Below are positions 43,708-64,000 of a stretch of 64,000 nt of DNA, piece by piece. Under the pieces are notes generated by a model. It searched no databases, was not told the DNA's origin, and saw nothing but the letters and a program-made list of their open reading frames with translations. Source of the DNA: Diplolepis rosae (lineage: Eukaryota; Arthropoda; Insecta; Hymenoptera; Diplolepididae); the NCBI GenBank assembly GCA_030998225.1, contig JAPYXD010000382.1:1860001-1924000 (forward strand), read 5' to 3'. A program made the position numbers and the translations under genes. Every line of letters begins with the position of its first letter. Positions within the stretch are counted from its first letter, which is position 1.

Positions 43708-43813
43708 GCCTGGCCACCGATTCGCAGTTCGTACGTGCCTTGCCACCGATTTGCGATTCGAACGTGCCGTGCCACCGATTTACGATTCGAACGTGCCGTG
43801 CCACCGATTTACG
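43708..43813 (+). promoter_or_regulatory. 29-bp tandem repeats in U3, upstream of the TATA box
   Basis: The word GCCACCGATT recurs at 43,713, 43,742, 43,771 and 43,800, period 29, ending about 35 bp before TATATATA. The same array is at 61,640-61,740 and, inverted, at 7,507-7,602. Tandem repeats just upstream of a promoter in an LTR are typical of enhancer or protein-binding arrays; that function is inferred. Confidence 0.7.
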
Positions 43814-44345
43814 TTGATCTGCTCCCACTAATAGAAGCATCAATAGTATATATACCCCAGATTCACCTCTGGAGGTTTGTCATTAAGTTCCGAACAGTTG
43901 TACGGTTGTTAGGTCCGGACCGGTAATTCAACATCGTGAGCAGACCCTTCGATAAACGTAAGTCTCAGTGGATTTCTATGAGCAACTCAACATTCGGTAC
44001 TTGGTAAATAAAATCCTTAGTCCTTAAGTGGTGCAAGTCCGGAAACCGTAGTGCTAGATAGTTCCTTTGGATTACGTGTATCGTCGTATTTAGTCGTGTC
44101 GGTTAATAGTGATTCATTTCTGAAATCGGGACGAACTAACCTATCTTGTTAACAAGTGCATGTTTGATTCATTTCTCGTGTACTTAACAAGATACGTAAG
44201 CGGATAATTGATCACATCAGTCGCTGGTGGACTTGCATCCCTTACACCAACTATCCTGCAAGGATTTGTGCGCGTTGACTTGCAACAATAGGAGTAATAA
44301 ACGACAATTCTCTCTTTTGCCCTCTAATTTAAGAGGTAGACAAGT

Positions 44346-44690
44346 AAGTTATACATATAAATAAGCATCTCAAAACTTATTATATTATCTATAACACTGA
44401 ATGTGGTGCGTGAGTTGTATACCTAGGCATCTCAAAACCTAGTATATTAGCGTAACACGTACACAATCAACTCCGGAAGTGACATATATATAGGCATCTC
44501 AAAACCTGTATATTTGGCTCATAACCGTACAAAACTTATAACACTGAATGTGGTGCGTGAGTTGTATACCTAGGCATCTCAAAACCTAGTATATTAGCGT
44601 AACACGTACACAATCAACTGCGAAAGTGACATATATATAGGCATCTCAAAACCTGTATATTTGGCTCGTAAACGCATAAAACTCATAAAA
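44346..44690 (+). repeat. 147-bp tandem repeat with constant-loop hairpins, copy 1
   Basis: The unit starts ATAACACTGAATG at 44,391 and again at 44,538. Each unit has two hairpins whose loop is CATCTCAAAA; an extra one precedes the array. Loops start at 44,366, 44,428, 44,495, 44,575 and 44,642. Stems differ: ATAAG/CTTAT, CTAGG/CCTAG, and TATAGG/CCTGTA with one mismatch. Copy 2 of the LTR has a third unit. Confidence 0.85.
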
Positions 44691-44959
44691 TTGCCTTCTC
44701 ATCCGAGAAGTAGTATAGTTTACCACCTAAGTAACAAACTGTGCAACATTCTATTTATTTATAATAAATTGTCATTTATTTACAAATTCAGTGTTTTATT
44801 ATCATTGTGAACAACTCAGGGCCCATAGACCTGACAAGTGACAACGTACCCACAAACAAAAATAAATTATCAGGCCTTACCAACCTGATATAATCAGCCT
44901 ACCGCCTCCCTTATATCCAATTATCCAACCTACCCTCGCCTTTTGCTCGGGACGTAACA

Positions 44960-45585
44960 CTTGTTCTCAGCGAGCGCCACACTAACCTGTGGTTACTCCC
45001 ACCCGACCGATCATTCAGGTTAAGCAGCCCGAGGAATGGTCGCGGGATGAACGGGCATCCCGCGGTCATAGTTTAAAAATTTTTTTTTTTTTTTTGTTAC
45101 TATTTATCATGAATTTATTTAATTTGGGGCATGTAAGGGGATCATTATAGCCAATAGTTAGATGAACAATTAAATCAATATAAATTCAATAAATGATTAA
45201 ATGAATGTTAAATAGTGTGAATAAAATTAATTATTATTGTATGATCATAAATGTTATGAACATTTAACATTATAAATAAATATAATGACTACAAATAAAT
45301 ATAATTATTGTCACACCGTCAATACTATGAATATTAAATACGATAAACGAAGATAACTATCGTTACATAGTCAATATAATAAGTATCGAATACTATAAGC
45401 AAGTATTATTATAAATGTTAAAAATTACAAATAGTAATAAATTAGCATAGGTTTAATTAAAAATTGCAGATTTAAAATTTAAACTCTAACTTAAAGATCG
45501 AAACTTTTGGCTCAATTAGGCGAAAATTCGGTTTAAAAATATTTAAATATCAATAAGATAAAAGTTCAAGAGTCGAAATGTATCA
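44960..45585 (+). repeat. Right part of element X, after the LTR
   Basis: It follows CTTGTTCTCAGCGAGCGCC and matches the mariner-borne copy on its minus strand down to AGTCGAAATG. It lacks about 1.4 kb of the middle of that copy. The same sequence follows LTR copy 2 at 63,034-63,659. Confidence 0.75.
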
Positions 45586-46914
45586 GATATGTAAAAAAAA
45601 AATCTTGTGTAGAAACATTTAAAAGGGAATACTTTTATTCTCTGCGTTGTAAATTTTCAAAATATAAATTGTAGGATTGTAAATTTGAAATGTTTATAGT
45701 ACCCAAAAAATTATGCAAAATCTAAATCTTGTGTAGATATTCTTTTTTTTGTATTGAGTTTTAATTACTTTATATTGATAATGTAGGCGGATATTTCCTA
45801 GGAGAACCCTAATAAAGATTTTAATTCTGCATTTCTCTCAACTAAAGAAATAAATATTTATGTAAACACGGTATTTTATTCGAATAAAGAAACTCTTTAA
45901 ATCGACTGAATATCTTCCTAAATTAATTAATGAATGCATCAATCAAATTGCGTCTCAGCCATTACCTGAATAAACTTGTAGTATTAAAGCATCGAATATT
46001 TAAATTCAAAATTTTATAAGTACACAAATTTCTGAAAGTACTAAAATTACACAAGGTGTTGTGCTTGAGTCAGGCTTGTTTAATTTCGTACTACTGAAAT
46101 TTTCAATTTGTTAACTAAGTTTGAATTTAAGTTTAAAACAAAACAAGAACAGCACACGAGAGTATAAGTCCTTTTTAGATTCGCTGAGCGGTCACCGTCG
46201 ATGACGATCGACTGGGTAAGGCAAAGTTCGAAGTGTCTGCATTGTAATTGTTTATAACTTTCATTTTAACTTTGTTAACTAACAGAATATTTTTGATTGC
46301 AAAGATTGTCCAAGAGTCTGTGCTTGAGTCTAGCTTGTCCAATCTTGTATCTCTAAAATTCTGTGACATTAAACAATTTTTTTTTGTTTATTAACAATAA
46401 ACATTTTCTGTGATTTTAAAGATTAATTAAGGGTTTGTGCTTGAGTCTGGCTTAATTAATTTTGTATCACCGAAAACGCAAGTTGTTAATACACATAATC
46501 TAATTATAAATTCAATAATTGCAATTACTTGCTCAGGAATTCGCGGTCGCGGCTGGCCTGACCCGCCTTATATCACTGAAAACATATAATCCAAGGTTAA
46601 ACGCTGCAGCGACTGCGCGCGCCACAGCAAGAATTTGCAGTACAGTAATAGCTAGAACAAATCATTGACAGTAACAGTTCAAAATTAGTATTACTGCATT
46701 CATTTAAAAATAAACAATTAAAAACAAACAAATAAACAAATTCAGCAATAAATTAAATTTCCTAAATTAACAATTAAAAATAAAATTCAAAGTAACCACG
46801 ATATTATAATATGTAATAATAATTGAACTATAATACTTTTTTTAATATAAATAAAACACTTTGAACAGATTCTCACACACACACGATAAAAGAATCCATT
46901 TGAACACTATAACA
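45586..46914 (+). other. Leader or LTR-like region before the primer binding site
   Basis: 45,586-45,927 recurs at 63,660-64,000, where the window ends. It contains a hairpin array (46,044-46,561) and ends CACTATAACA at 46,914, 17 bp before a primer-binding-site candidate. TAACA at the end mirrors the TGTTA at the LTR start (42,995). So the real 5' LTR may run from 42,995 to 46,914 (3.9 kb), with 44,959 a nested boundary. Confidence 0.5.
46044..46561 (+). repeat. Hairpin array with constant 19-nt loop, locus 2
   Basis: Hairpins at 46,044-46,086, 46,302-46,346, 46,422-46,460 and 46,533-46,561. Loops are all 19 nt and mostly of the form NNNNTGTGCTTGAGTCNGG. Stems are AAATTACACAAG, AAGATTGTCCAAG, ATTAATTAAG (10 perfect pairs) and TCAGG. 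The last stem equals that of the last hairpin at locus 1. Stem sequences differ while pairing is kept. Confidence 0.85.
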
Positions 46915-47499: not shown

Positions 47500-47856
47500 A
47501 CATTTCTTACGAAAATTAAAATACTGGAAACAAAATTAATTATAATAATAATAACAATAAACATTTTATATAAGCCAACTTAAATCTGGTTTTGAACATA
47601 AATTTTGACATTACACTGGCAAAGTAATTATTGAATTTTTTTATCAAAAAAAAAATTAATAATTAATAAGAATTTATTTAATTGAATTGATTAATATTTG
47701 AAAAGGTCAGTTTTTCATCATTAATCAAAATTAAGGATCAGGTGCTAAAATTAATATAATTTTACATATAAGGAGCATTCGAAACTCCCGGTTTCTGGAC
47801 AGACTAAATTATACGGAATTTTATTCAACCTTTCGAATTACAAAAATTAAACCAAC

Positions 47857-49854
47857 ATGCCTCACGAGAAAAATAGCACCACTCATGACAAAACGCAAGG
47901 TGGAGAGTTCACAGGAAACATTTCACGAACCCTTAGTGACGCCATGGTCACTTCAATGGCGGAATGTTTTGCTATACAGCAGGGAGTGATGAATATACCC
48001 ATTTTTAACGGAAAAAATATGCCAGTTAGGCACTTTATTCAAGATGTATTAAATGGAGAATCCAGCGTACCTGCAAATTGCGACAGGCAGTACATAATGG
48101 CGGTACTAGCGCGATTAAAGGGTGCTGCAAGAGATAGCACGCACGGAAAAACATTTTCCACAATAACCGACTTAATACAACATCTTAAACAGCGCTTTGC
48201 CCCCCACAAGACTTACTCGTGGTATTTGCATGAAATATCCACAATTAGGAGGTCTCGCAGCGAAAGTGTAAGCGAGTTTTACGACAGAATCACCCTACTT
48301 AAATCCGGAGCTCAAGCGGCGTTAGAAGACAAATATCAAAACGCGGAGCAGATGTTACTACCCTTAAACGATTGCGCCTTAGAAGCTTTTATCCGAGGAC
48401 TACCCGATGTAATATCAGGAATGGTGGAATCACGGAATCCATCGTCATTGGAAGCAGCATTAAAATACGCACTCGAGTATGAGGCTCGACATCAATTAAA
48501 CCCCCATATTCCTATAAACAATATTGCGGAAAATAGATATTCCACCCCTTATACAGGATCAAGGGATAGGAGCCCAAGCCCTCATGTTAGGTTTGCATCA
48601 TCATGGGATAGGAATAGAGCAGTGGAACCCAGACAAGGACCAACAGGGATAATAAGGACACCTACATCACCAATAGTGCCTAATTACCCGAATAATTACG
48701 CACCCCCATTTCAATACCCACCTTATATACCCTATCAACCTTATCCGTACTATCCAGGTTCGCTAACATCAAACAACCCTTACCCTAATCACAATTACCC
48801 ATATAAAGGAACTAATACACCCCCGAGAGCACAATCACCAGCTCCAGCTAATAAAAATGATTTAAACTTCGATTCCGCTCGTCGAACAGACGCGACGACG
48901 AGCGTGGAGAAAACCGAGCGTCAGAATGCTTTAGATGAGGACCTACTGGTCAATGAGAATGAAGCAATAGAAATCACAGGAATTACACAAAGTAGGATTT
49001 CAACTATAGGAACAGTAAACATCGAATTAATGAAATCCAAAATCACTTTTCATGTAGTACATTCTGACTTACCAATAAGCACGGATGGAATACTAGGTCG
49101 AGAATATCTTCGACAAGAGAAGGTAGAAATATCCTTTTGGCATAACACCATTGTGACGCACTCCAACCCCACAAAACCTATACCGTTCATAGACAATGAA
49201 TCTAGAGTAGCGTTAGAAAATACCACAGATTACAAAGGGCCTCTACTAGGACCAATCAAGGTAAGAGCCAGGACTCGACGAGCTATTCCAATAGCAGTAA
49301 TAAATTTCGAAATAAAAGAAGGGTACTTACCCTTAATAAAAACTACAGAGGGCGTGCTAGTAGGCGAAGCAGCCGTAACCAACGTGAATGGGATTTGTCA
49401 TGTATTCGCCATTAATACAACAGATAATGACCTCGAAATAGAATTACCCCCACAAGAAATCATCCCCTTTGAATATTACAAACTTCCAGGAGAAGATTTC
49501 GACGAATATTCGGCAGACGAAGATTATTCACCCCCAGTAAATAAAGCTGAAGAAGTAATAAAACACCTTCGACTGGACCATTTGAATACCGAGGAAAAGG
49601 AGCATGTACTGGAGATAATTAGGGAATTTCCTGATAATTTCTACCTGCCAGGAGAACCTCTAACCTCCACTCATTTAGTGCAGCACAAGATTCACACTTT
49701 AGACGACGCGCCTATTAACACCAGGCCATACCGATTTTCACCCTCTCAAAAGGAAGAAGTTGAGAGAGTAATACAAAAAATGAAGATAGAAGGAGCAATT
49801 AAAAACTCAAAATCTCCTTATAACTCACCCCTACTGATTAACCTAAGAAAATAG
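47857..49854 (+). CDS. ERV gag, partial protease and RT N-terminus
   Basis: 665 residues. Positions 1-220 are capsid-like (AVLARLKGAARDST, YDRITLLKSGAQAA, ALEYEARHQL). Residues 240-330 are Pro/Tyr-rich. No CCHC knuckle is present. Residues 370-440 match the second half of an aspartic protease (ITGITQSRISTIG, STDGILGREYL), but no DTG or DSG precedes it. Residues 565-660 begin the RT (LVQHKIHTLDDAPI, YRFSPSQKEEVE). The frame ends at TAG 49,852-49,854, and the RT continues one frame over, so there is a one-base lesion near 49,842. The element belongs to the env-bearing Gypsy (errantivirus-like) group by order. Confidence 0.8.
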   Translation: MPHEKNSTTHDKTQGGEFTGNISRTLSDAMVTSMAECFAIQQGVMNIPIFNGKNMPVRHFIQDVLNGESSVPANCDRQYIMAVLARLKGAARDSTHGKTFSTITDLIQHLKQRFAPHKTYSWYLHEISTIRRSRSESVSEFYDRITLLKSGAQAALEDKYQNAEQMLLPLNDCALEAFIRGLPDVISGMVESRNPSSLEAALKYALEYEARHQLNPHIPINNIAENRYSTPYTGSRDRSPSPHVRFASSWDRNRAVEPRQGPTGIIRTPTSPIVPNYPNNYAPPFQYPPYIPYQPYPYYPGSLTSNNPYPNHNYPYKGTNTPPRAQSPAPANKNDLNFDSARRTDATTSVEKTERQNALDEDLLVNENEAIEITGITQSRISTIGTVNIELMKSKITFHVVHSDLPISTDGILGREYLRQEKVEISFWHNTIVTHSNPTKPIPFIDNESRVALENTTDYKGPLLGPIKVRARTRRAIPIAVINFEIKEGYLPLIKTTEGVLVGEAAVTNVNGICHVFAINTTDNDLEIELPPQEIIPFEYYKLPGEDFDEYSADEDYSPPVNKAEEVIKHLRLDHLNTEEKEHVLEIIREFPDNFYLPGEPLTSTHLVQHKIHTLDDAPINTRPYRFSPSQKEEVERVIQKMKIEGAIKNSKSPYNSPLLINLRK

Positions 49855-49934
49855 ACGCCACAGGAAAGAAGAAATGGAGAATAGTAATAGACTTTCGGCT
49901 TTTAAATGAAAAAACAATTGGGGATGCATACCCA

Positions 49935-51404
49935 TTGCCAAATATTGCAGATATTTTAGATCACTTAGGTACTGCACAATATTTCTCTATTTTTGATCTA
50001 GCCAGTGGTTTCCATCAAATAGAACTAGACCCGAATGATAGACAAAAAACAGCGTTTTCATCATTGAATGGACACTATGAGTACGTCAGAATGCCCATGG
50101 GATTGAAAAATTCACCGGCTACATTCCAGCGCCTAATGGACCAAGTTCTATTAGGGCTACAGGGGACCGAATTATTTGTCTATCTCGACGACATAGTAAT
50201 ATACGCTAAAGACTTAGAAGATCATGGAAAAAAGGTAAGACGCCTTCTCAAACAACTGAAAGAAGCCAACCTGTCACTACAACCGGAAAAGTGCGAATTT
50301 CTTTTCAAAGAAATAGCATATTTAGGGCATATAATTACAGACAAAGGAGTAAAGCCAGATCCTAAAAAGATCGAGGCTGTTCAAAATTTTCCCAGACCAA
50401 GAACACCAAAAAACATAAAACAATTCCTAGGACTAGCCGGATATTACAGAAGATTCATCAAGGACTTCTCCGCAAGAGCGAAGCCTCTATCAAATTTATT
50501 AAAAAAGGAAGCAGTATTTAAATGGGGACCAGTGGAAGAGAAGAGCTTCAGGGATCTACGACAAGCTCTGTGCGAAAGCCCCATATTGCAATACCCTGAT
50601 TTTGAAAAACCCTTTACAGTAACTACTGACGCTTCAGACTATGCAATAGGAGCCGTTCTGAGCCAAGAAAAGGACGGAATGGATCTCCCTGTGGCATATA
50701 TGTCGAGAGTGCTAGTTGGACCCGAATTAAATTACTCTACAACGGAGAAGGAATGCCTTGCAGTTCTCTACGCGGTACAACAATTCCGACCCTATATTTA
50801 TGGAAGAAAATTTACCCTCATGAGCGACCATGAGCCCCTCAGGTGGATAGATTCTGTAAAAGATCCAGGCCAAAGACTAATTCGTTGGAGACTAAAATTA
50901 AGAGACTATGAATATGAGTTTAAATACAAACCAGGTAAATTAAATACTAACGCGGATGCCCTATCAAGAAATCCAATCGTAGAAAACTCTGACGAAAAAG
51001 AAGAAGAAGAAAAACAGCCTTCCATTTTACTGACAATGTTGACTAGACAAGCTAATAAACGAGAGGAAAACAGCGCGAAGCCTAGTTCAAAAACTTTAGA
51101 ACCAGAAGCCAAAAATAAACCCGCAATTCAGACAAGAAAAGGATTCACTTCGAGAATTTTACCCTCTAAACCCTCTACTTCAAGACCTCAAAAACCGACC
51201 CTCGCTAGGTCAAAGTCTAGTGCATCAACATCAGCTGATTTGGACCAGAGCACCATTAGCAAACGGTTGATTCGACGGCGGGTAGAGACTCAACGAGTTC
51301 AGGATCGACCAGATTATAGAGAGGATAGCAGTTCGGAAGAAACAGAAAGGGATCCAGAACCACCCCCAATCCTCAGAAAAAGAAAAGTGTGCTACCAAGC
51401 TTGA
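49935..51404 (+). CDS. ERV reverse transcriptase and RNase H
   Basis: 489 residues; the true frame is open slightly upstream of this Met. RT motifs: FSIFDLASGFHQIEL, MPMGLKNSPATFQ and the active site VYLDDIVIY near residue 85. The connection GLAGYYRRFI follows, then RNase H with TTDASDYAIGAVL, MSDHEPLRWI and NADALSRNP. After RNase H comes a tail of about 130 residues rich in Lys, Ser and Arg with no known fold. The ORF ends at 51,404; pol continues in another frame from 51,389, so a second frameshift lies near 51,390. RT and RNase H convert genomic RNA to DNA in the particle. Confidence 0.88.
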   Translation: MPNIADILDHLGTAQYFSIFDLASGFHQIELDPNDRQKTAFSSLNGHYEYVRMPMGLKNSPATFQRLMDQVLLGLQGTELFVYLDDIVIYAKDLEDHGKKVRRLLKQLKEANLSLQPEKCEFLFKEIAYLGHIITDKGVKPDPKKIEAVQNFPRPRTPKNIKQFLGLAGYYRRFIKDFSARAKPLSNLLKKEAVFKWGPVEEKSFRDLRQALCESPILQYPDFEKPFTVTTDASDYAIGAVLSQEKDGMDLPVAYMSRVLVGPELNYSTTEKECLAVLYAVQQFRPYIYGRKFTLMSDHEPLRWIDSVKDPGQRLIRWRLKLRDYEYEFKYKPGKLNTNADALSRNPIVENSDEKEEEEKQPSILLTMLTRQANKREENSAKPSSKTLEPEAKNKPAIQTRKGFTSRILPSKPSTSRPQKPTLARSKSSASTSADLDQSTISKRLIRRRVETQRVQDRPDYREDSSSEETERDPEPPPILRKRKVCYQA

Positions 51405-53377
51405 ATTTACCACCTGCAGCATACCCATCGCCAACAATACCTAAGAGTGCACCGGCAAAAGCACCAGAGTGCTCGGCTGAATTCTTCCCAGAAGATCAGG
51501 AAGAATTAACCCCTATGACAGAAAAACAAGAAACAGGACCCATTAAAATGGTGAGTCCGCCACCCAGCGACAGTGAAGACAGTACAACAGAAGAAGAACA
51601 AGAAAGAGACCAGATGGAACAAGAAAAGGCTAATTCAACTAAGGAAAATATAGAAAAATCATTTTCACGATTTGAACAATCCTTAAAGGCCCATGAAGAC
51701 TGGCTGGAGAGGACAGAAGTGGATGAAGAAGCCCCGCTTCTTGAAATCACAGCAGTTTCGGAAGGAGAAAATAATCAAGAGCTCCTTGATGCCATTGAAG
51801 AAATGGAACCTGAAAGCGAGACCGAATTCACGAACAGAATAGAATCAGCTATAAAAATAGCTGAAGAATTATTAAAAGAAACACAGAAAAAAGGAAAGGT
51901 GATAAATTCCGAAAAGTACATACTATGGATACTAATAGTTTGCCGTCTGACCGTGCAGGTCAGACTAAGTAGCTGTCGAGAGAATCTTACTTATTTGAAA
52001 AGTAATTACGTGCATTTTCTCTCGGCTGACTGTGAGTTTGTCACCCCCGTAAGCCGACTACTAGTGGACTTGGGAGTAGTAGATCCTCAGGACCTGAAAA
52101 ATAGGAAACCTAAAATAGGAGAAGTGCTTATCACACCTCATAGACGCTTTAACATATATTCACTCATAATTAAACAAAACCATTTTGATGAGATAAACGA
52201 AGAATACGTTAAAGTAGCCGTACACAATTTGAGAATAGCCCTAGAAAAGGAAAATATTTCGGAATTTCGCATTTCAAAACATGGAGACATTAGTGACACA
52301 TTACCAATAGGAAAATTGCGCGAAATTCTAACTCAAGAATTCGCTAATTCAAAAATGGAAATAACAATATGTTATGGCAACGTAAATATACCCCCAGAGG
52401 AGACACGTACCCAAATTATCTCCGAAAATCATGAGAGTAAAATTGGAGGTCACAAAGGGATAAACAAAACATATCGAAGAATTAGAGAAAGGTACATGTG
52501 GCCAGGACTTAAAGAGCAAGTTACTGAATTCGTCAGAAAATGTGACTTCTGCCAGAGACAAAAAATTGTACGGGCAAAAATTCACGAACCCATGCTAATC
52601 ACCGATACACCCCTCGACACCTTCGACAAAGTTTCCCTAGACACAGTAGGAAAATTGCCTACCACCCCTGATGGTAATAAACATATTCTCAGCATGCAGG
52701 ACAATTTATCTAAATATTGCATAGCCGTCCCCATACCCGATATTTCAGCAACCACTATCGCTCATGCAATAGCAAAACACTTATTTTCACAATATGGAGC
52801 CCCGAGGGCTATACTTACAGACAGGGGAGGAAGCTTCATCAATAAATTGCTCAGAAAATTATCCAAAATTTTCGGAGTAAAGCAAGTCACCACCTCAGGG
52901 TATAGACCGCAATCAAACGGATCCCTGGAAAGGAGCCATGCCGTATTGATGGATTACATAAGGTCATACGCGGAAACCTACGACGATTGGGACCAACTCC
53001 TACCCTTCGCGATGTTCGCGTACAACACCTCAATACACGAAGCCACAAAATTTACACCCTTTGAAGTAGTGTTTGGTAAGATTGCACGCACCCCCAGTTC
53101 ATTTCCAAACCCAGAAAAATTAGAAACCTACGGAACCTATCTGCAGGAACTAATATTAAGACTATCGGAAATTAAATTAATGGCAGCGGAAAATTTGGTT
53201 GCCGCGAAGGAACATTCAAAAGAAAATTATGATCAAAAAGTAAAACCATTTTTAGGGAATGTAGGAGATCAAGTATACGTCCAAAGGGAAGTTAAAACAC
53301 ACGGAAAATTGGTAGTCCAGTTTTATTTATTATATTATAGTAATATAATAAATACCACGGACCCTACACCCTTGTAA
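51389..53377 (+). CDS. ERV pol C-terminus: macrodomain-like segment and integrase
   Basis: 662 residues. Residues 1-170 are acidic and probably disordered. Residues 198-331 resemble a TARG1-type macrodomain: NYVHFLSADC, then KIGEVLITP, FNIYSLIIKQNHF, and the closing MEITICYGN. The usual catalytic GCGLD loop is replaced by SKHGD. The integrase zinc finger is at 347-395 (NHESKIGGHKG, CDFCQRQK). The core has Asp in SLDTVGKLP and LTDRGGSF, and Glu in SLERSHAV. The end is disturbed by a palindromic insert at 53,324-53,354; after it the integrase tail continues in another frame to about 53,469. Confidence 0.8.
   Translation: MLPSLNLPPAAYPSPTIPKSAPAKAPECSAEFFPEDQEELTPMTEKQETGPIKMVSPPPSDSEDSTTEEEQERDQMEQEKANSTKENIEKSFSRFEQSLKAHEDWLERTEVDEEAPLLEITAVSEGENNQELLDAIEEMEPESETEFTNRIESAIKIAEELLKETQKKGKVINSEKYILWILIVCRLTVQVRLSSCRENLTYLKSNYVHFLSADCEFVTPVSRLLVDLGVVDPQDLKNRKPKIGEVLITPHRRFNIYSLIIKQNHFDEINEEYVKVAVHNLRIALEKENISEFRISKHGDISDTLPIGKLREILTQEFANSKMEITICYGNVNIPPEETRTQIISENHESKIGGHKGINKTYRRIRERYMWPGLKEQVTEFVRKCDFCQRQKIVRAKIHEPMLITDTPLDTFDKVSLDTVGKLPTTPDGNKHILSMQDNLSKYCIAVPIPDISATTIAHAIAKHLFSQYGAPRAILTDRGGSFINKLLRKLSKIFGVKQVTTSGYRPQSNGSLERSHAVLMDYIRSYAETYDDWDQLLPFAMFAYNTSIHEATKFTPFEVVFGKIARTPSSFPNPEKLETYGTYLQELILRLSEIKLMAAENLVAAKEHSKENYDQKVKPFLGNVGDQVYVQREVKTHGKLVVQFYLLYYSNIINTTDPTPL
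53324..53354. repeat. Perfect palindrome inserted in the integrase tail
   Basis: Two 14-bp arms, TATTTATTATATTA and its complement, flank TAG. It shifts the frame of the pol C-terminus. It may be a very small insertion or an excision footprint. Confidence 0.75.
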
Positions 53378-53512
53378 AAATATTAGACAAGAACAACGCC
53401 ATCTTGGAAAAACCCGACGGAAAACTATTCCAAAAACATTTTAACAAACTTAAGTTAGTGAATGACTAAAAATTAAAAAATATTAACCGCAATTTTCTTT
53501 TACAGGAAAATC

Positions 53513-54115
53513 ATGTCCAGCATTAACATGCGACCACCACAAGGAAAAATATACCCCGCTACCCTCCATCCAAAAGGGGAGATTAATAACTTACGGTTTG
53601 CTAAGGGACAGTTGGAGGAGCTGGCGGCAGAGTACGGCTTTACAAAACCAAAGTATACGTTAGAGGAAACCGCGGGAACCGACAACGCAAAAATTTTCAT
53701 CATTAAATGCGAAGTAGAAGACCGTAGACGCGAGAATAAATTCAGTACCGTAAGAAACGGGGAAAGAAAAATACGTAGCGCAGAACATAAGGCCGCGAGA
53801 AAAATGTTAACGGCCCTTGAAAAAATGTATTTTTTTAGCGAGGAAAAAAATGATTGTAATATTACGGACGAAGAGTACGTTATTTGTATGGACAACCCCG
53901 CGACGTTATTAATTAAATTATACAAATGGGAAGCTTGTTGCGAATACTGTTATTTGAGGGGCCATACTATGGCAAATTGTAAAAAGCAAATTAAACGAAA
54001 TAAGCGGCTTCCCGACGATCAAGAACCAAACGAAGAAGACTTCTGGGGTCCTCCACAAGGGGATGAAAATACAAATCTTATATATTATAGGATTAACAAA
54101 GTTGTAATTATATAG
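53513..54115 (+). CDS. dsRNA-binding domain plus CCHC zinc-knuckle protein
   Basis: 200 residues between pol and env. A splice acceptor (TTTTCTTTTACAG, ending 53,506) stands just before the ATG, so it is probably made from a spliced subgenomic mRNA as Env is in related viruses. Residues 33-106 fit a dsRNA-binding fold: helix LEELAAEYGF, strands PKYTLEETAG and KIFIIKCEVED, a turn, and helix SAEHKAARKMLTAL, close to the AEHxAA form of plant DRB proteins. Residues 143-156 (CEYCYLRGHTMANC) are an exact C-x2-C-x4-H-x4-C knuckle. Gag of this element lacks a knuckle. The protein likely binds RNA. Silencing suppression is a reasonable guess, not shown. The ORF is intact. Confidence 0.72.
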   Translation: MSSINMRPPQGKIYPATLHPKGEINNLRFAKGQLEELAAEYGFTKPKYTLEETAGTDNAKIFIIKCEVEDRRRENKFSTVRNGERKIRSAEHKAARKMLTALEKMYFFSEEKNDCNITDEEYVICMDNPATLLIKLYKWEACCEYCYLRGHTMANCKKQIKRNKRLPDDQEPNEEDFWGPPQGDENTNLIYYRINKVVII

Positions 54116-54587
54116 CATTACTCATGACGCATATTAAATATCACCACTAGAATTATAGATATATTCGCAATTATACATAATAACTAGATTAGGCGCACAC
54201 TATTATACCCATATATATAAAGCTTGCAAAATAAATTAGAAAAACTTAAACGTAGGATGTTTAATCAATGATTCAAACCCCAAACCACCTATAATACTTA
54301 TAATATTTATGCAATTGATTTGCAGTTTCAAAACCTATTCAACTATTTTCATATTCACATATATAATTATATCACTGTTATATTTAATAATTTTTTTGAT
54401 AAAAATTCAATAATCTGATTTCATTAAAATAAGGGAATAAAGAAATCAAGAGAGAGGATATGGAGGTTGCCTTATTCCTTCTTCCCTTATCAACACAACA
54501 ATGTAACAAAAGATAACATCCCTGATAGAACTCTAATAAAATTTTAACAAAAACCTTACTTTTATAGACAAATAGACAAACAACAGG
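54116..54587 (+). other. AT-rich leader before env
   Basis: Between the dsRNA-binding ORF and env. A pyrimidine-rich TTACTTTTATAG ends about 21 bp before the env ATG and could be its splice acceptor. Nothing else is recognised. Confidence 0.4.
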
Positions 54588-55556
54588 ATGTTTACCCAGA
54601 TCCTAGGCCAAGCAACAATGATCTGTACAGGAGTACTACTCAGCATGACAGGCTCGTCAGGAAACCCACGGAATTACGAAGTACAACCTTTTGATAACAA
54701 CCCAGGCTTATTCTACGAAAAACTGGAAACTATCCGCACTACTCAGAACCATTGGAGGTTCGTTATATTCATGGACCCCCAAAAACTACAGGAACATCTT
54801 CAATTCGACAAAATGAAGTCAGAAGTTCAGAAAATTTACAAGACGTGCCCAAATCGATTGAAAAGTACTAATTGCAAAGATATGATAAAATTGGATCGCC
54901 TCAATGAAAAGCTACACCAACTCGAAGTTATAAATGAGGATTTAAGTGAAATACTAATGGAACTACAACAGAACATACCCCATGAAATAATTCCACCAAG
55001 GACCATGCATAGACGAAGAGCACCTCTTCTTGGATTCATAGGCAGCATTCTAGGACCAGTAATAGGAGTCATGACTTCCGACGACGCAGAGGAATACAAC
55101 GAAGCAATAAATGATATTTATGAAAAGCAAAATAACATCAGTAAAATAATTGGAAAACAAACCCACATAATAAAAGCAGAAGTGAATAATATTCATCAGG
55201 ATCTAAACAAGAAAACTAAGCAAATTCAAATTATTCAAAAAGAATTAAATGAAACTATCAACAAAATAGAATCAAAAGGACAATACTGGAATGATTACAT
55301 GTATTATGAAAAAATGATACCATGGTCAACACATTTGGAACTAAAATTGGAAAATTTATATGAAATAATAAAACAATTCATTAAAATAACAGAATACGCA
55401 CGAGAAGGCAAATTACACCCTTCAACAATTTCCAAAGCCCAACTACAAGAAGTAATCACTGAAATACACACTAAAATGGAAGATTACGAATTTCCGATTC
55501 CTACTTCACACGTTAGAGTGGAATTACTTTCACAAAATTGGCAAGACAGACCTTAA
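54588..55556 (+). CDS. ERV envelope fusion protein, N-terminal part
   Basis: 322 residues. The first 25 could be a signal peptide. A basic stretch HRRR at 141-144, just before APLLGFIGSILGPVIG, resembles the proteolytic site and fusion peptide of errantivirus Env and baculovirus F proteins. A long helical, coiled-coil-prone region follows (residues 170-240). The known role in relatives is membrane fusion for cell-to-cell spread. The frame stops at 55,554-55,556 while homologous-looking sequence continues one frame over, so a frameshift lies near 55,530-55,560 and this copy is broken. Confidence 0.75.
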   Translation: MFTQILGQATMICTGVLLSMTGSSGNPRNYEVQPFDNNPGLFYEKLETIRTTQNHWRFVIFMDPQKLQEHLQFDKMKSEVQKIYKTCPNRLKSTNCKDMIKLDRLNEKLHQLEVINEDLSEILMELQQNIPHEIIPPRTMHRRRAPLLGFIGSILGPVIGVMTSDDAEEYNEAINDIYEKQNNISKIIGKQTHIIKAEVNNIHQDLNKKTKQIQIIQKELNETINKIESKGQYWNDYMYYEKMIPWSTHLELKLENLYEIIKQFIKITEYAREGKLHPSTISKAQLQEVITEIHTKMEDYEFPIPTSHVRVELLSQNWQDRP

Positions 55557-55596
55557 AATTAAATCTGGAAAATTACTAATATCAGTAGACATCCCA

Positions 55597-56574
55597 TTGC
55601 TAGATAGAAAAGCACTACAATTATATAAAATTTACCCATTTCCTGAGTACCAGAACATTTCAGGAAATTATATTAGAGCCATCTACATTTTACCAAGAAA
55701 ACAATATATTGCCCTGACAGAAGACGAAAGAAAATTCTTTTTGGCAGATAAAGAGTACTATGACACCTGTCAAAGAACAATCTACCACACGATTTGCGAA
55801 AACACCCAACCAATGCACGAAACAGTCACATCTACGTCCTGCGAATGTCAAATGCTTACACGCCCTTCAATGCAAATTTTAAAGCAATGTGATATAAAAA
55901 TAAACACAAAAAATTCAGTTTTTTGGAAGCATATTCCATCCTTAAACGCATGGATATTTTCAACTAAAAAACCAGAGCCAATCAGCATCACCTGTAAAAA
56001 GGGAAAAACAGAAAAAGGACATATTACAAATTCAGGAATATTAAGATTAAGTGCAGGGTGTATTGCCAGAACGGAACAGACAACTTTAATTGGAACTCAA
56101 ATAAATGTAAACTCAGAAGAATTTATCTACAACCCAGGATTTTCATTGAACATATCAGAAATTTCCCCAATAATCTATAAAACGATGCATATTCCTACGA
56201 TAACATCATTGTTTTGGGAAACAGAAAAGGATAATAAATTAAAAAATCTGCATACGGAAGAATCACTCTCTACCATAGAAGAACAACTTCTCAACATGGG
56301 AAACAATCATTATAGACATAAACTAACCCAAAAATATTGGTTAGGAGGGTCCAGCATCCTAACCTTATTAATAATAACAACAGTAATATACCTCACACAA
56401 GGAATAATCCGTAAAAACTGTAAAACGTGTAATCATACAAATTTAAACATAAAAGAAAACCAAGAGGAAGTAGAACTACAACCCCTTTCGGTAGACAACC
56501 AAACAAACACAGAAGAAATTCACCCCCTTCCAAGAGTATTAACAATCCCAACAACAAATATTAGAATTGCATAA
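55597..56574 (+). CDS. ERV envelope, C-terminal part
   Basis: 325 residues in the next frame. A Cys-rich ectodomain has CQRTIYHTICENTQP and TSCECQMLTRP. Near the C-terminus, SSILTLLIITTVIYLTQGI is a clear membrane span, followed by a cytoplasmic tail with CKTCNH. Together with the preceding ORF it forms one env gene broken by a frameshift. No further stop interrupts this part. The ORF ends about 35 bp before a purine tract. Confidence 0.75.
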   Translation: MLDRKALQLYKIYPFPEYQNISGNYIRAIYILPRKQYIALTEDERKFFLADKEYYDTCQRTIYHTICENTQPMHETVTSTSCECQMLTRPSMQILKQCDIKINTKNSVFWKHIPSLNAWIFSTKKPEPISITCKKGKTEKGHITNSGILRLSAGCIARTEQTTLIGTQINVNSEEFIYNPGFSLNISEISPIIYKTMHIPTITSLFWETEKDNKLKNLHTEESLSTIEEQLLNMGNNHYRHKLTQKYWLGGSSILTLLIITTVIYLTQGIIRKNCKTCNHTNLNIKENQEEVELQPLSVDNQTNTEEIHPLPRVLTIPTTNIRIA

Positions 56575-56608
56575 ACAAATACAAGTCGTTGAGGACAACG
56601 ACACTTTT

Positions 56609-56620
56609 AAGGAGGGAGGA
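56609..56620 (+). promoter_or_regulatory. Polypurine tract 1, after env
   Basis: AAGGAGGGAGGA followed by C, preceded by GAGGACAACGA. This is the usual form of a plus-strand priming site in Gypsy elements. The sequence after it (AAGTACCCAAG) does not match any LTR start in the window. Confidence 0.65.
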
Positions 56621-56621
56621 C

Positions 56622-58690
56622 AAGTACCCAAGTAAGCAAAATTTTTGCCAAAAATCACACTGAATTACGATACATCATTACCGTTACCACCAGGAATATA
56701 CAATAAATAATCACGATACATAATGGCAGCTATAATAAATTAACAATCAAAGCAACAGAGGAAGAGAATAAGGATCATAGAAAGTACGAGGAGTTTAGCC
56801 ATATCAAGCTAACAAACCACTCCCACTTGAGAAAGAAATTAATCACACCCACCGAGAGCAACCATAATGAATTATAATCCAATCACGTAAAGAAATTCAA
56901 TGTGACACCTTACTGGGCGCAGCGTATCACTAGCAGTCGAGACTCCCGACAACATGGCCAGAGCGTAACTTGAACCGCCCAGCGATAAGAAGACTCGCGA
57001 CCGCCTGCAATGAATCATATATACTAAGCAGTTCTCCTGTATCTATATGAATGCCTATTACAAGTTCTTTATTAGACTTGCCAAAAACCCACAAGGCAGC
57101 GGGCCTTATACCAATGGATGCACCGACAAGATGGTTATCATTATCAAAAACTCCATGGCAGCACCGCAACATTAATTGAATAATATCCGCGAAGAATAAA
57201 AGATGTGCAATGCTATATATCCATAAACCTTTAATCATGTAAATCAATCAGAATTGAGCCACATGACTAAGGGTTTCTCCGAACTATAAGGGCACATATC
57301 TCCGTTGTTAACGCAATACTAGAAATAACCACATAGATATTTCAAGTAATTGATTGACTAAGTAGTCAATGGGATAAGGCCATAATTTTGTAAAGAAATA
57401 ATTACGAGCACATCGATTAATAAAGCCATTCTTGGTAAAACCGGGTAACGCAAAACCTAACCATGAATCTTCTATTACAAATTACCCGATTTGGCCAATA
57501 AATAAGCTCGTGCCAGCCAAATTAACCTAGAAATAAGCAATAGATGGATTTAATAAAATAACTATAAAAGGACTTCCCAGAATTCGGATTATAATCAGAT
57601 TATAAACTAAGAACTAGGGTAGAACTTTTTAAAAATTTTATATTTAGTAAATTGAAGAAAGAGTTTTAATCACGCTGAACTAAGTTAATGTTTTGAGGCA
57701 ACTAAAGTTTTACATGAAATCTTTGAATAATAATTTTATGACAAGTGTTATAAAAACTGCTTACAGCTTCATAAAATTAAGAAAAGTTCAGAAAATGCAG
57801 TGCATTTTGGCAATTTTAGGATACTCATACCAAAATTCATCCTAAGGATCGTCAAGTTTTACGTTAACCTTCACAAAATGAAAATTTGAAGGTTTCTAAC
57901 AGAATCCGACTATCATAATTAAGAGATAATGTCTATAAAGTCATGTATATGTGTATGTTGTGTGAATTATGTGTGAATTACACATATATGCATGCATATA
58001 TGCCTATATACATGTATGATGTCATGAAGGTATGACAGGGCATGGCTATTTAAACCACTACCATAAAAGCATCAATAAAACGTAGCAACATGAGTGCTCC
58101 TCAAGCAGTATGCTGCCCTGCTAAATCTTCATTAAGCTCGGAATTGAATTCGGGTGGTCCTGTGGCTAAAACGATGAAATTCCCCGCGTAACCTAAAAAT
58201 ACTTCATCAAAAAGCTATACACCTTCAATTATGTACACCGATCGGATTTGGTCTACATAATTTAGGGTCCCTGCATACATGCATGCACACGTACGTACGT
58301 ATGTGTGTACGCAGGTGTGTAGATGGGGTCAGCAATCATGGATAGACGAGCCCATAATTAAAAATACGGTAATTATAACCTAAAACTAATAATCAATAAT
58401 ATAAGTAATTCTAAGATTATAGTTAGGTGCTATCGCGCCACCTTTGGTACAGATTTCCAGGCGATAGCAATCAACAATACTACCAAAGGGGTCGCAGTAC
58501 AAATATAGGAAAAATATATATATTAAATATATTAAGTTCATTTTAAATTAATTAAATTCTAAAGCTACGGGAATCAGAGAAATAAAACATGAAAATCAGA
58601 GAGACAAGCAGAGGGCAACATATAGGAAACAAAAATTTTGAACGTACCTCGTCTGCCAGTCTCTCAAGCTATTATATACGTTTAAAAATT
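56622..58690. other. Non-coding part of the antisense module
   Basis: Between polypurine tract 1 and the antisense gene. A CATATATACTAAGCAGTTC promoter-like word lies near 57,015-57,035. Palindromic TA/TG words occur at 57,950-58,020 and 58,270-58,320. No plus-strand gene is recognised. Either the body of a 3' LTR or captured flanking DNA. Confidence 0.35.
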
Positions 58691-58696
58691 TTTATT
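58691..58696 (-). terminator. Poly(A) signal candidate of the antisense gene
   Basis: AATAAA on the minus strand, 170 bp beyond the stop codon of the spliced antisense gene. Confidence 0.4.
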
Positions 58697-58865: not shown

Positions 58866-60309
58866 TTAGTGGTAGCTGGGAGGCAGCACCGGATCCTCCG
58901 TTGGCACCAGGACTTCCTCAGGCCTCGGGTCTGAAACAAGAATTAATAAATAAGAAACAGGAAATCGAAGACAAGAAACAGAAAGGAAGAAGGGAATTTT
59001 AAATGGAACAAGATTGGAAACGAAATCTACAACTTACACCACGGAGCATCATAGTATGTCCCGCATCGGCACGGGAGGACATGGAAGGAGCCACGCAGGT
59101 AGCGCCCGCAGTGACAGAAATCCCCCATGTACCAGGCACCACTGAAACATTCAAAAACAAAGAGGAAATAATAAATAAAATATGCCAAATCAAGGTAATT
59201 CCAATGAGCACACGACGACTTACCCAAGGCAAACAGAAGGCACCAGGGATGAGTGTATACACTCCTGCATGCCAGGCGTGCCTACATGCGCTTCCGTAAG
59301 CGCCAGCAGCTCCAGTGCTCGGCGGCGTGCCACCTCCTGCGCTCGTCTAGCAGCCTGGATGGCTAGAGAGCGCCAGCACCTTCTAATTATTCTATTTCGG
59401 CACCCACCTCGGTTCTCCCGGGCCACCCGACTCCAGTTTTGTTGGAGCTGCCCCTGCTGAACAATCTCCGTCGCCAGGAGCAGCACCCGAGCCAGGAATA
59501 AGCCCGGGGAGCACCGCAGAAAGTTCCGTGGCCGCCCCTGCACGCCTGAAACAAAAAGAAAAAGGATAATTAAAGATTAACGATTGAAGAATGACGTAGT
59601 AGCTCTAAGGCACCACCCTATTCCACGCACCCAAGCCAACCCCACCACTAAACCTCGACATTTTAGGGCGTCCTTACACCCTAAGATGCGGTGTTTTAGC
59701 TCCAGGGAGGCTACGCGTAGCAGAACACCGGGACTCCGCGAATCGAGAACCCTGACAACGGCAAAGGAGTCGTGGGAGACTGAGGAATCAATCAACTCCT
59801 GACAGGCCAGGGTCATTGATTCGATAGCCCGGCTGGGACGAACGCCGCGCACTGATACATAAAAAACCCCCAGTCGATCTTCAATCTCCGAAATGCGCAC
59901 TTGCAAGCTGTCACGTCGCGGCGCAAACAGGGCAGGGTCCCCGGACGAAGAAGATGAACTGGAGACACTCGGCTGTAATAAAGAGAGGTCGAAATCCGCA
60001 ACCGAGTCAATTAAGGAACGATCAATAAGAAGACCGGAGGCTTGAGGGCTAGAGTAATCGGGTGCCCCGAACCACTCAGCTAGTAGAGAGTCCAGGAAGT
60101 CCCCGGCGCCTGACATCTTGACCCGAACCAAGACACTTCACGAATGCGGCACTACCCGAACCAATTATGCAAATTAAAAATGGGCACTTACCAGCTCCTT
60201 CAGGCACCGACGTAGCCCCCCTCACTAAGGAGAGAGGGTAGCCCTGATCTTGGCAGTGCTCTTCGTAAGAGATGGTCCCTGAGCTTGACGATGACCCATC
60301 TTCTGCCAT
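58866..60309 (-). CDS. Antisense five-exon gene of unknown function inside the ERV
   Basis: Minus-strand exons: 60,309-60,192, 60,109-59,678, 59,545-59,224, 59,141-59,038 and 58,930-58,866. Donors are GTAAGT, GTAAGG, GTAAGT and GTAAGT. Acceptors are CAG, three of them after strong pyrimidine tracts. All four junction phases agree and total length is 1,041 bp, 346 residues plus stop. The ATG has a good context (GCAGCCATGGC), and a further acceptor at 60,322 suggests a noncoding first exon. The product has Ser-rich N-terminal parts, an Arg-rich helix (RNRIIRRCWRSLAIQAARR), a Cys group (CHCGRYLRG, LPCRCG) and a C-terminal PPSY, which fits the PPxY motif bound by WW-domain ubiquitin ligases. I recognise no family. 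Intact introns are explained by the antisense orientation, since they are not spliced from the ERV transcript. Confidence 0.7.
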
Positions 60310-60502
60310 GGCTGCCGTAGACTGAGGAGAAAATCATCCCCACGACCCAGCATGCAACGAGATGACATCATGCCAACCATGCAAAAAACCCCACCAAGGC
60401 AGAACTCCTAGGGCACACGTGCACTACCACCCAGAACAAGATCCAAAATTCGTCATGTCAACTTCTACATAAAATTGACTCATGGCAACTACAGCATAGC
60501 AT

Positions 60503-60650
60503 CACTATCCAACATCTTCGAAAAATGACATCATCCTGCATCAGCTGAATCCTCAGATAACACCATTCTCAGGATACACTATCCAACATCTTCGAAAAAT
60601 GACATCATCCTGCATCAGCTGAATCCTCAGATAACACCATTCTCAGGATA
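60503..60650. repeat. 74-bp tandem duplication upstream of the antisense gene
   Basis: CACTATCCAACATCTTCG begins at 60,503 and again at 60,577, with two nearly identical units. It lies 200-340 bp upstream of the antisense ATG, in its likely promoter region. Confidence 0.85.
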
Positions 60651-60908
60651 CAAGTAGCCTAGTAGAAAAGAACAAAATACCAGAAACGCCCTGTCAAATT
60701 AATAACAAAAACTACTTCAGTCCCTGCAGTCATCAACATGCAGCTGCAAAATAACATCACTATCTACCAGGAACTATTTACTTACCAAAGAGATTCCGGA
60801 AGTGCAATCCACACCACAAATTATGGGGCCCACAACTTAATATAGAACGCCCACTACACTTTTTTTACGGAAGACACTTATTATTTCATCGAGGACGATG
60901 ATTATTCT

Positions 60909-60920
60909 AAGGAGGGAGGA
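60909..60920 (+). promoter_or_regulatory. Polypurine tract 2, directly before the LTR
   Basis: AAGGAGGGAGGA then C, then TGTTACATCCC of the LTR at 60,922. It is preceded by GAGGACGATGA, as at tract 1. Position next to an LTR start is the expected place of a functional polypurine tract. Confidence 0.8.
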
Positions 60921-60921
60921 C

Positions 60922-63033
60922 TGTTACATCCCAGTAACTTTTAAAATTTTATATTGCCCCTGTGCAAGGGCAATGCGCCAAACACCGAGGATAACGAGGA
61001 AGACATCATTCAAGTATAAGAGTGTTCCTATGATAAATTATCATATGGACCGGGTAGCTGTGCGCATGGGGTAAACATATGTATACCTCACGTCGACGAA
61101 TCGGTTTGACATATGGTAATAAGAGATGAAGAAGAACAGCGCCCTGTCTATATGGTAATTGCACCCGTGGTAATGAGTCAGTAACTCGCACCGCGAGCCG
61201 ATAAAGTAGTAACGCCGTGCTAATAACCTAATGAGAGAATGAGAAGTTATCGGCACAGCCTCACTAATTATAATGACTAAATATTATAATCATTATTATA
61301 TTAATATTAATTATGTATCAACATTACATCAGTACTATTATTAATACCTCAGGTAGTAAAATAGTATTGATCAATATTATCGCCATTATGTATTGATTGC
61401 CGATGAGTCGATCACGATCAATGAATAAAAATCGATCATTGATTATGGATCATAGATAAGAAATCGATTGACTGATCATTGGCAACCAATTAATGATCAT
61501 ACTTCATAAAATAAGTAACACAAATTGTAAACAAATAAATGCAGAAATGAGTAATTATAAATGCATTTATTTGGAAACTAGATATAAAATTGGGCAATAG
61601 AAGAGATGAACTCATGAACCCTTGCAGAGATCGTGCCTGGCCACCGATTCGCAGTTCGTACGTGCCTTGCCACCGATTTGCGATTCGAACGTGCCGTGCC
61701 ACCGATTTACGATTCGAACGTGCCGTGCCACCGATTTACGTTGATCTGCTCCCACTAATAGAAGCATCAATAGTATATATACCCCAGATTCACCTCTGGA
61801 GGTTTGTCATTAAGTTCCGAACAGTTGTACGGTTGTTAGGTCCGGACCGGTAATTCAACATCGTGAGCAGACCCTTCGATAAACGTAAGTCTCAGTGGAT
61901 TTCTATGAGCAACTCAACATTCGGTACTTGGTAAATAAAATCCTTGGTCCTTAAGTGGTGCAAGTCCGGAAACCGTAGTGCTAGATAGTTCCTTTGGATT
62001 ACGTGTATCGTCGTATTTAGTCGTGTCGGTTAATAGTGATTCATTTCTGAAATCGGGACGAACTAACCTATCTTGTTAACAAGTGCATGTTTGATTCATT
62101 TCTCGTGTACTTAACAAGATACGTAAGCGGATAATTGATCACATCAGTCGCTGGTGGACTTGCATCCCTTACACCAACTATCCTGCAAGGATTTGTGCGC
62201 GTTGACTTGCAACAATAGGAGTAATAAACGACAATTCTCTCTTTTGCCCTCTAATTTAAGAGGTAGACAAGTAAGTTATACATATAAATAAGCATCTCAA
62301 AACTTATTATATTATCTATAACACTGAATGTGGTGCGTGAGTTGTATACCTAGGCATCTCAAAACCTAGTATATTAGCGTAACACGTACACAATCAACTC
62401 CGGAAGTGACATATATATAGGCATCTCAAAACCTGTATATTTGGCTCATAACCGTACAAAACTTATAACACTGAATGTGGTGCGTGAGTTGTATACCTAG
62501 GCATCTCAAAACCTAGTATATTAGCGTAACACGTACACAATCAACTCCGGAAGTGACATATATATAGGCATCTCAAAACCTGTATATTTGGCTCATAACC
62601 GTACAAAACTTATAACACTGAATGTGGTGCGTGAGTTGTATACCTAGGCATCTCAAAACCTAGTATATTAGCGTAACACGTACACAATCAACTGCGAAAG
62701 TGACATATATATAGGCATCTCAAAACCTGTATATTTGGCTCGTAAACGCATAAAACTCATAAAATTGCCTTCTCATCCGAGAAGTAGTATAGTTTACCAC
62801 CTAAGTAACAAACTGTGCAACATTCTATTTATTTATAATAAATTGTCATTTATTTACAAATTCAGTGTTTTATTATCATTGTGAACAACTCAGGGCCCAT
62901 AGACCTGACAAGTGACAACGTACCCACAAACAAAAATAAATTATCAGGCCTTACCAACCTGATATAATCAGCCTACCGCCTCCCTTATATCCAATTATCC
63001 AACCTACCCTCGCCTTTTGCTCGGGACGTAACA
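60922..63033 (+). mobile_element. Long LTR-like unit (element M), copy 2
   Basis: Same as 42,995-44,959 with near-identity. TATATATA at 61,774-61,781, AATAAA near 61,934, 29-bp repeats at 61,640-61,740, and three instead of two 147-bp hairpin units (starts 62,318, 62,465 and 62,612). It is followed by CTTGTTCTCAGCG, exactly as copy 1 is. It lies directly after a polypurine tract, so its start is the 3' LTR start of the retrovirus. Confidence 0.88.
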
Positions 63034-64000
63034 CTTGTTCTCAGCGAGCGCCACACTAACCTGTGGTTACTCCCACCCGACCGATCACTCAGGTTTAGCA
63101 GCCCGAGGAATGGTCGCGGGATGAACGGGCATCCCGCGGTCATAGTTTAAAAATTTTTTTTTTTTTTTTGTTACTATTTATCATGAATTTATTTATTTAG
63201 GTGCATGTAAGGGGATCATTATAGCCAATAATTAGATGAACAATTAAATCAATATAAATTCAATAAATGATTAAATGAATGTTAAATTGTGTGAATAAAA
63301 TTAATTATTATTGTATGATCATAAATGTTATGAACATTTAACATTATAAATAAATATAATGACTACAAATAAATATAATTATTGTCACACCGTCAATACT
63401 ATGAATATTAAATACGATAAACGAAGATAACTATCGTTACATAGTCAATATAATAAGTATCGAATACTATAAGCAAGTATTATTATAAATGTTAAAAATT
63501 ACAAATAGTAATAAATTAGCATAGGTTTAATTAAGAATTGCAGATTTAAAATTTAAACTCTAACTTAAAGATCGAAACTTTTGGCTCAATTAGGCGAAAA
63601 TTCGGTTTAAAAATATTTAAATATCAATAAGATAAAAGTTCAAGAGTCGAAATGTATCAGATATGTAAAAAAAAATCTTGTGTAGAAACATTTAAAAGGG
63701 AATACTTTTATTCTCTGCGTTGTAAATTTTCAAAATATAAATTGTAGGATTGTAAATTTGAAATGTTTATTGTACCCAAAAAATTATGCAAAATCTAAAT
63801 CTTGTGTAGATATTCTTTTTTTTGTATTGAGTTTTAATTACTTTATATTGATAATGTAGGCGGATATTTCCTAGGAGAACCCTAATAAAGATTTTAATTC
63901 TGCATTTCTCTCAACTAAAGAAATAAATATTTATGTAAACACGGTATTTTATTCGAATAAAGAAACTCTTTAAATCGACAGAATATCTTCCTAAATTAAT
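63034..64000 (+). repeat. Second copy of the sequence after the LTR
   Basis: Matches 44,960-45,927 with a handful of differences and runs off the window end. It includes the right part of element X (to 63,659) and then the beginning of the leader-like region. The duplication is therefore longer than the 2-kb unit with TG...CA ends. Confidence 0.88.

Follow-up and report, generated by a model that had tools for sequence, protein, structure and literature searches.

A predicted antisense gene with introns between env and the 3′ long terminal repeat of a Ty3/gypsy-type element of Diplolepis rosae

Can a retroelement of an insect carry, on the strand opposite to its own genes, a gene that is divided by introns? 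The question is raised by a stretch of 64,000 nucleotides from Diplolepis rosae (contig JAPYXD010000382.1, positions 1,860,001 to 1,924,000 of the forward strand; hereafter the window), which is rich in mobile elements and contains a long terminal repeat (LTR) element of more than 20 kb with an antisense gene candidate inside it. An earlier note on this DNA had described the candidate as a gene of five minus-strand exons and 346 codons. The minus-strand open reading frame (ORF) pieces were present and their position between env and the 3′ LTR was confirmed; the gene itself is probably real, with a structure unlike that in the note. Overall, we assign a probability of about 0.62 to the reading that the antisense unit is real, has four coding exons, moves together with the element and serves it, the last two of which we infer.

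Exon structure and relatives of the antisense gene

The location, the ORFs, the splice-site sequences and the relatives described here are direct observations. The best model consisted of four minus-strand coding exons at 60309-60192, 59545-59224, 59141-59038 and 58930-58866, which joined in phase to a predicted protein of 202 amino acids (aa). The exon names follow the earlier note, and the coding exons are called 1, 3, 4 and 5, exon 3 being the second coding exon. Exon 1 (60192-60309) starts with an ATG at 60309 and ends at the donor CTG/GTAAGT; with exon 2 skipped it read in frame into exon 3, for a total of 203 codons including the stop. Exon 3 (59224-59545) encodes an Arg-rich, predicted helical hairpin, exon 4 (59038-59141) two CxCG pairs that may form a zinc site, and exon 5 (58866-58930) contains the stop and ends the protein with PPSYH. 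All three introns had GTAAGT donors and matching phases, with donor scores of 10.5 at 60192, 8.7 at 59224 and 5.9 at 59038, and the acceptors at 59545, 59141 and 58930 each ended in TTTCAG. The G+C content was 57-65% in the exons, 31-32% in introns 3 and 4 and 24% in the 3′ flank; the first intron of this model, 646 bases long, was not G+C-poor where it holds a further ORF, ORF2 (54%). ORF2 (59580-60116, minus strand) comprises 179 codons starting at an ATG of its own (60116), and the exon 2 of the earlier note is part of it.

Three protein searches, the first of which scored the 7997 candidates sharing most words, produced 13 database proteins that matched parts of the antisense gene. All were 'ena' entries, anonymous and without context, and the longest contigs of the relatives measured 537 to 7002 bases. 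Exon 1 was covered by P0002, P0003, P0007, P0010 and P0012 and ORF2 by P0001, P0002 and P0003, while in-frame coverage of exon 3 came from P0004-P0009 (all or part of the exon), of exon 4 from P0010 and P0011 and of exon 5 from P0010. Every exon was therefore covered in the predicted frame, though by no single relative. P0013 matched weakly (expected value, E, of 0.1) and does not enter the splice and identity tables. Searches of viral and prokaryote contigs gave no confirmed relative. P0007 was considered as a spliced complementary DNA joining exon 1 to exon 3 and rejected: by eye the joint does not lie at the GTAAGT donor, and the start of the protein resembles a translated sequencing adapter. 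Internal deletions, from exon 1 to exon 3 and from exon 3 to intron 3, were seen by eye in P0007 and P0009, and by the same inspection these two look like deletion derivatives or chimeric reads.

Splice sites were checked by back-translation of 12 of the 13 relatives over hand-listed segments, where 'compatible' means that the site is not excluded and many checks leave several bases open. For the four-exon model, 20 of 21 relative-by-site checks were compatible with GT or AG: 4/4 at donor 60192 (P0003 has no G at +5), 4/4 at acceptor 59545, 6/6 at donor 59224, 2/3 at acceptor 59141 (not P0010), 3/3 at donor 59038 and 1/1 at acceptor 58930. The same check bears on a gene of five exons with exon 2 spliced between exons 1 and 3, which would encode 344 aa plus a stop and not quite the 346 codons first counted. 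Its phases can match, ORF2 stays open wherever P0001, P0002 and P0003 align with it, and the donor GAG/GTTTAG at 59654 keeps a possible GT in 3/3 relatives. However, that donor scores -0.5, the other phase-keeping donor of exon 2, GGT/GTAAGG at 59678 (score 4.7), was compatible in 0/1 relative, and acceptor 60079 was incompatible in 3/3 aligned relatives (P0003 weakly aligned and in another frame). The five-exon model was rejected on the relatives' splice sites at 60079 and 59678 together with the weak donor 59654, and we regard it as highly improbable; four exons and 202 aa fit better. The consensus splice sites claimed for all four introns were thus good at 60192, 59545, 59224, 59141, 59038 and 58930 and not at every intron.

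A codon-position test was carried out on the relatives read out of the predicted frame, namely P0003 and P0011 for exon 3 and P0009 for exon 4, for which the possible numbers of visible changes at positions 2 and 3 were near equal (171 to 184, 83 to 84 and 145 to 146). The changes found at predicted positions 2 and 3 were 7:23, 2:6 and 0:3, which sum to 9:32 (p = 0.0004). This excess at third positions supports coding in exons 3 and 4. Two sets of alignments were judged unreliable and excluded from the sum: a P0009 match in a second frame, which overlapped the in-frame one (8.0 to 13.0), and the P0013 rows, which showed no third-position bias (exon 3, 21.7 to 19.3; exon 4, 16.5 to 14.5). In frame, residue identity over exon 3 was 376/518 for P0004-P0009. 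P0010 showed 29/34 identical residues in exon 4 and 17/20 in exon 5, above its intron readings (3/6, 4/7 and 6/16), and P0011 showed 29/34 in exon 4, above intron 4 (3/10) and not above intron 3 (5/6). The relatives and the codon-position bias thus uphold an antisense, intron-bearing gene, and the five-exon, 346-codon structure is the part of that claim that fell away. We consider it highly probable that this is a real, once-selected antisense gene with introns and, given a real gene, likely that the four-exon form is the right one.

From the single sequence alone the case was only moderate, and it is the relatives that make it. In dinucleotide shuffles of the region, with a donor score of at least 5.5 and 9 pyrimidines, 45 of 2000 contained a chain with four or more exons and no fewer than 202 codons (6/400 in an earlier run), so that chance agreement had been called very unlikely too firmly. 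No shuffle among the 2000 reached 346 codons; the script's own 346-codon chain in the real sequence uses exons other than those first proposed. With the donor cut-off raised to 5.9, the longest real chain had 219 codons and combined exons 1, 3 and 4 of the model with another last exon at 58807-58692.

The region upstream of the antisense gene (60310-60953, minus strand) contains a candidate TATA-like site at 60953, barely within the LTR, and a candidate intron of the 5′ untranslated region from donor 60786 to acceptor 60321, the acceptor being compatible in 2/3 relatives. Downstream, an AATAAA motif at 58691-58696 (minus strand) is a candidate polyadenylation signal. A perfect 74-base tandem duplication lies upstream of the gene at 60503-60650, for which P0012 by eye seems to be single-copy.

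Predicted products and proposed mode of action

The part of the protein encoded by exon 3 has an isoelectric point of 11.6. A structure model built from five sequences showed two long helices, at residues 24-54 and 59-98 of the ORF piece, with a mean predicted local distance difference test score (pLDDT) of 65.4, a predicted template modelling score of 0.36 and a ten-residue block at pLDDT 90 in the second helix. The Arg-rich helix proposed earlier is therefore supported by a modest model, and the hairpin may resemble the Rev-type Arg-rich hairpins. The proposed Cys pairs and the PPSYH end were also present, and the two CxCG pairs of exon 4 are kept in P0010 and P0011, with no Pfam match. The idea that PPSY acts as a late domain is weak: the end is not constant, and a late-domain role is doubtful because P0010, the only relative covering the end, reads RPSYH. 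No Pfam family was found for the 202-aa protein or for ORF2 at E up to 10, the sole Pfam trace being a sub-threshold LuxQ match of P0004 (E 0.29). In addition, a sequence search of the PDB gave nothing below E 0.2 and fold searches gave no match at E 0.001 or less.

Read in frame, ORF2 was identical to its relatives in 38/64 residues at the start and in 229/297 in the body. The P0002 reading stays open from exon 1 through intron 1 into ORF2, which makes an unspliced product with the exon 1 N-terminus possible in that relative; the frame differs in the window. ORF2 would probably be a second product, made from unspliced or differently started RNA, and the acidic-hydrophobic N-terminus gives by eye the impression of an activation domain. 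A structure model of ORF2 was too poor to use (mean pLDDT 37.6). A wider reading, in which the element is a complex invertebrate gypsy-type retrovirus whose antisense regulatory unit makes two proteins, the 202-aa protein and ORF2, by alternative splicing, is put forward tentatively, as a possibility with less than even odds.

We infer the transcription, splicing, mobility with the element and function of the gene as follows. In the provirus, the 4.3 kb that separate env from the 3′ LTR would form a cassette holding the antisense transcription unit. Antisense RNA would start upstream of 60309, either within the cassette or within the 3′ LTR, and splicing of the four coding exons would yield a basic protein of 202 aa, in which an Arg-rich helical hairpin is followed by a CxCG...CxCG zinc-type site and a PxY tail. 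This protein would most likely bind nucleic acid and regulate the element's own expression, like the antisense proteins of deltaretroviruses. Antisense introns survive retrotransposition; here they would be retained because they are antisense to the genomic RNA, so that they would not be spliced out and would be copied back at each reverse transcription.

Several observations weigh against this account. The antisense gene is a prediction from sequence. A full-length intact gene was present in none of the 13 relatives, P0003, P0007, P0009 and P0010 showed deletions or frame changes by eye, and the exon 4 acceptor is lost in P0010. The same gene at the same place in other copies of the element was not seen, the contigs of the relatives being without context. 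Constraint on exon 1 above its flanks was looked for by residue identity and none was found (136/185 in five relatives versus 67/82 in the 5′ region and 63/85 in intron 1), and in P0009 short intron readings of 5/5 and 9/10 equalled the conservation of exon 4 (31/34, out of frame). For ORF2, the start showed no third-position excess (P0003, 10.0 at position 1 versus 11.3 at position 3), and in the tail changes at position 1 exceeded those at position 3 by 20 to 9 (P0004 and P0006). Combining a donor score of 5.9 with 10 pyrimidines left no chain in the real sequence, because acceptor 59141 has 9, and 4 of 2000 shuffles reached at least 202 codons. Finally, the assignment of function rests on composition and the modest model, with no family, PDB or fold match. 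Some of these points fit a gene that once coded for protein and has since become, in this lineage, dead sequence or a non-coding antisense RNA, with any effect exerted through antisense RNA or small RNAs. The broken relatives and the lack of visible constraint on exon 1 would agree with such a history, as would the frame changes in gag-pol and env of this copy. However, the antisense exons here have no stop and no frame break, in an element whose LTRs differ by 0.5-0.7%, and we consider loss of coding improbable.

The cassette and its host element

A 36-base segment that comprises the end of env and closes with the polypurine tract AAGGAGGGAGGAC was present twice, at 56586-56621 and 60886-60921 (both plus strand), in copies that are 78% identical and 4300 bases apart. 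The inner copy lies just after env and forms the left edge of the 4.3-kb cassette, and the outer copy holds the polypurine tract directly before the 3′ LTR. The antisense gene is thus placed inside the LTRs, between the two polypurine-tract copies. On the simplest reading the two tracts would be the trace of an old acquisition of the cassette, and the inner tract could serve as a second plus-strand primer. No sense ORF of at least 100 codons was found in the cassette. A second antisense ORF of 105 codons occurs in it at 56930-57247 (minus strand), protein-like by eye and without a Pfam match. Two other readings of this region were considered and rejected. One was that the inner polypurine tract is followed by an old, degenerate LTR: a local alignment with gaps ran from the tract about 25 bases into a stretch resembling the LTR start, and beyond it no LTR match was better than E 0.05. 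For the other, a nested DNA transposon, no inverted repeats of at least 14 bases paired the cassette edges.

The bracketing of the cassette by the duplicated segment is also what would be expected if a member of a host or DNA-virus gene family had been captured by chance, as a real multi-exon passenger without a role in the element. Such a foreign origin agrees with the third-position G+C of 65%, compared with 31-41% in the element's own ORFs, and with several relatives being broken copies. On the other hand, the acquisition looks old because the duplicated segments are only 78% identical, yet the codon bias persists between relatives; moreover, 13 different relatives, some of them broken, would suggest a repeat family more than one host gene. 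A passenger without a role is rather unlikely on this evidence, though less so than the loss of coding, and a gene acting for the element is preferred.

The two LTR copies begin at 42995 and 60922, both with TGTTAC, are at least 2.9 kb long each and showed 99.3-99.5% identity as far as the window reaches. The 5′ LTR part at 42995-45927 (plus strand) was verified as a repeat of 60922-64000, and its true end lies further right, perhaps at about 46.9 kb, where the TGTTA start has a mirror counterpart in TATAACA. The 3′ LTR (60922-64000, plus strand), identified by its repeat identity to the left copy, is cut by the window end. Between them, gag-pol (47851-53377, plus strand) consists of ORFs for gag/protease, reverse transcriptase (RT)/ribonuclease H (RNase H) and integrase, and in this copy the frame changes at about 49.85 and 51.35 kb, either by mutation or by programmed shifting. 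The Pfam matches in pol were RVT_1 (4e-36), RT_RNaseH (3e-38), Integrase_H2C2 (4e-21) and rve (2e-9), and RT-RNase H precedes integrase as in errantivirus-type Ty3/gypsy elements. The env gene, of the baculovirus F type, follows pol at 54576-56574 (plus strand) as two overlapping ORFs with a frame change near 55.5 kb in this copy, and both halves matched Baculo_F (1e-20 and 9e-25), again as in the errantivirus type. The order of RT before integrase and the F-type env would fit an errantivirus-like Ty3/gypsy element (Metaviridae).

A small sense ORF between pol and env (53477-54115, plus strand) matched dsrm in Pfam above the cut-off (1.4e-6) and by eye has a CCHC knuckle. This putative double-stranded RNA (dsRNA)-binding ORF is possibly an RNA-silencing-related accessory gene of a gypsy-type retrovirus; no relative of it was confirmed in viral contigs. 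Tandem repeats of 147 bases occur within the LTRs, in two copies on the left (44390-44688) and three on the right (62317-62767). Elsewhere in the window, the first 1.2 kb of the LTR recur in inverted orientation as a fragment of 94-98% identity at 7133-8311 (minus strand), and weaker matches of about 75% were seen at 4045-4179, to the LTR, and at 4185-4375, to the sequence that adjoins the LTR on its left.

Antisense genes of other elements

Antisense genes are known from human T-cell leukemia virus (HTLV) and from plant elements, and the gene described here matches no known family. HBZ and APH-2/3/4 of HTLV (Deltaretrovirus) are described in the available excerpts of PMC10186651 as spliced antisense genes driven from the 3′ LTR. 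They share with the present gene the antisense orientation, the location near the 3′ end, the splicing and proteins of a regulatory type, the last two being predictions here (PMC10186651, same excerpts), and the antisense position between env and the 3′ LTR was the same here. In contrast, the element of D. rosae is of the Ty3/gypsy type with an F-type env and not a member of Retroviridae, it has three predicted coding introns, and no bZIP domain as in HBZ was found with Pfam at E up to 10 in the 202-aa protein or ORF2. Most likely the product would be a spliced regulatory protein that is HBZ-like in layout.

For the antisense ORFs of plant Ty3/gypsy elements (Grande gene23, RIRE2 and Retand TRP28), a regulatory role with nucleic-acid binding has been proposed, according to the portions of PMC7264820 and PMC11963269 at hand, and the word 'intron' is absent from the main text of both papers. 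The gene described here differs in being split by predicted introns and in lying beside an F-type env, and neither the 202-aa protein nor ORF2 had a Pfam match to Transposase_28 (PF04195; TRP28, Retand group). The insect errantiviruses gypsy, ZAM and 17.6 share gag-pol and an F-type env with the present element, which differs in its LTRs of at least 2.9 kb, the dsRNA-binding ORF between pol and env and the antisense cassette. In the sections available of two papers on insect endogenous retroviruses, 'antisense' is used for PIWI-interacting RNAs, insertions and viral strands and no such gene is named (PMC12992720, PMC13172572), and rotifer elements are described, in the accessible part of PMC5408684, as carrying extra ORF3s. 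The open-licence PubMed Central matches listed, each seen in part, showed no invertebrate LTR element with an antisense gene of several exons, and the earlier remark that none is known in insects is in line with this.

If the gene is transcribed, it would represent an independent evolution of an antisense accessory gene in Ty3/gypsy retroviruses, one whose several introns outlast reverse transcription by virtue of their opposite orientation. Such a gene would also make it possible to test antisense control of provirus expression outside the retroviruses of vertebrates, and it would provide a clean marker of the acquisition of intron-bearing genes by retroelements. Should the two-protein unit and the sense dsRNA-binding ORF both prove true, they would correspond, in an invertebrate, to the accessory genes that complex retroviruses carry, and the introns would have been preserved by lying antisense.
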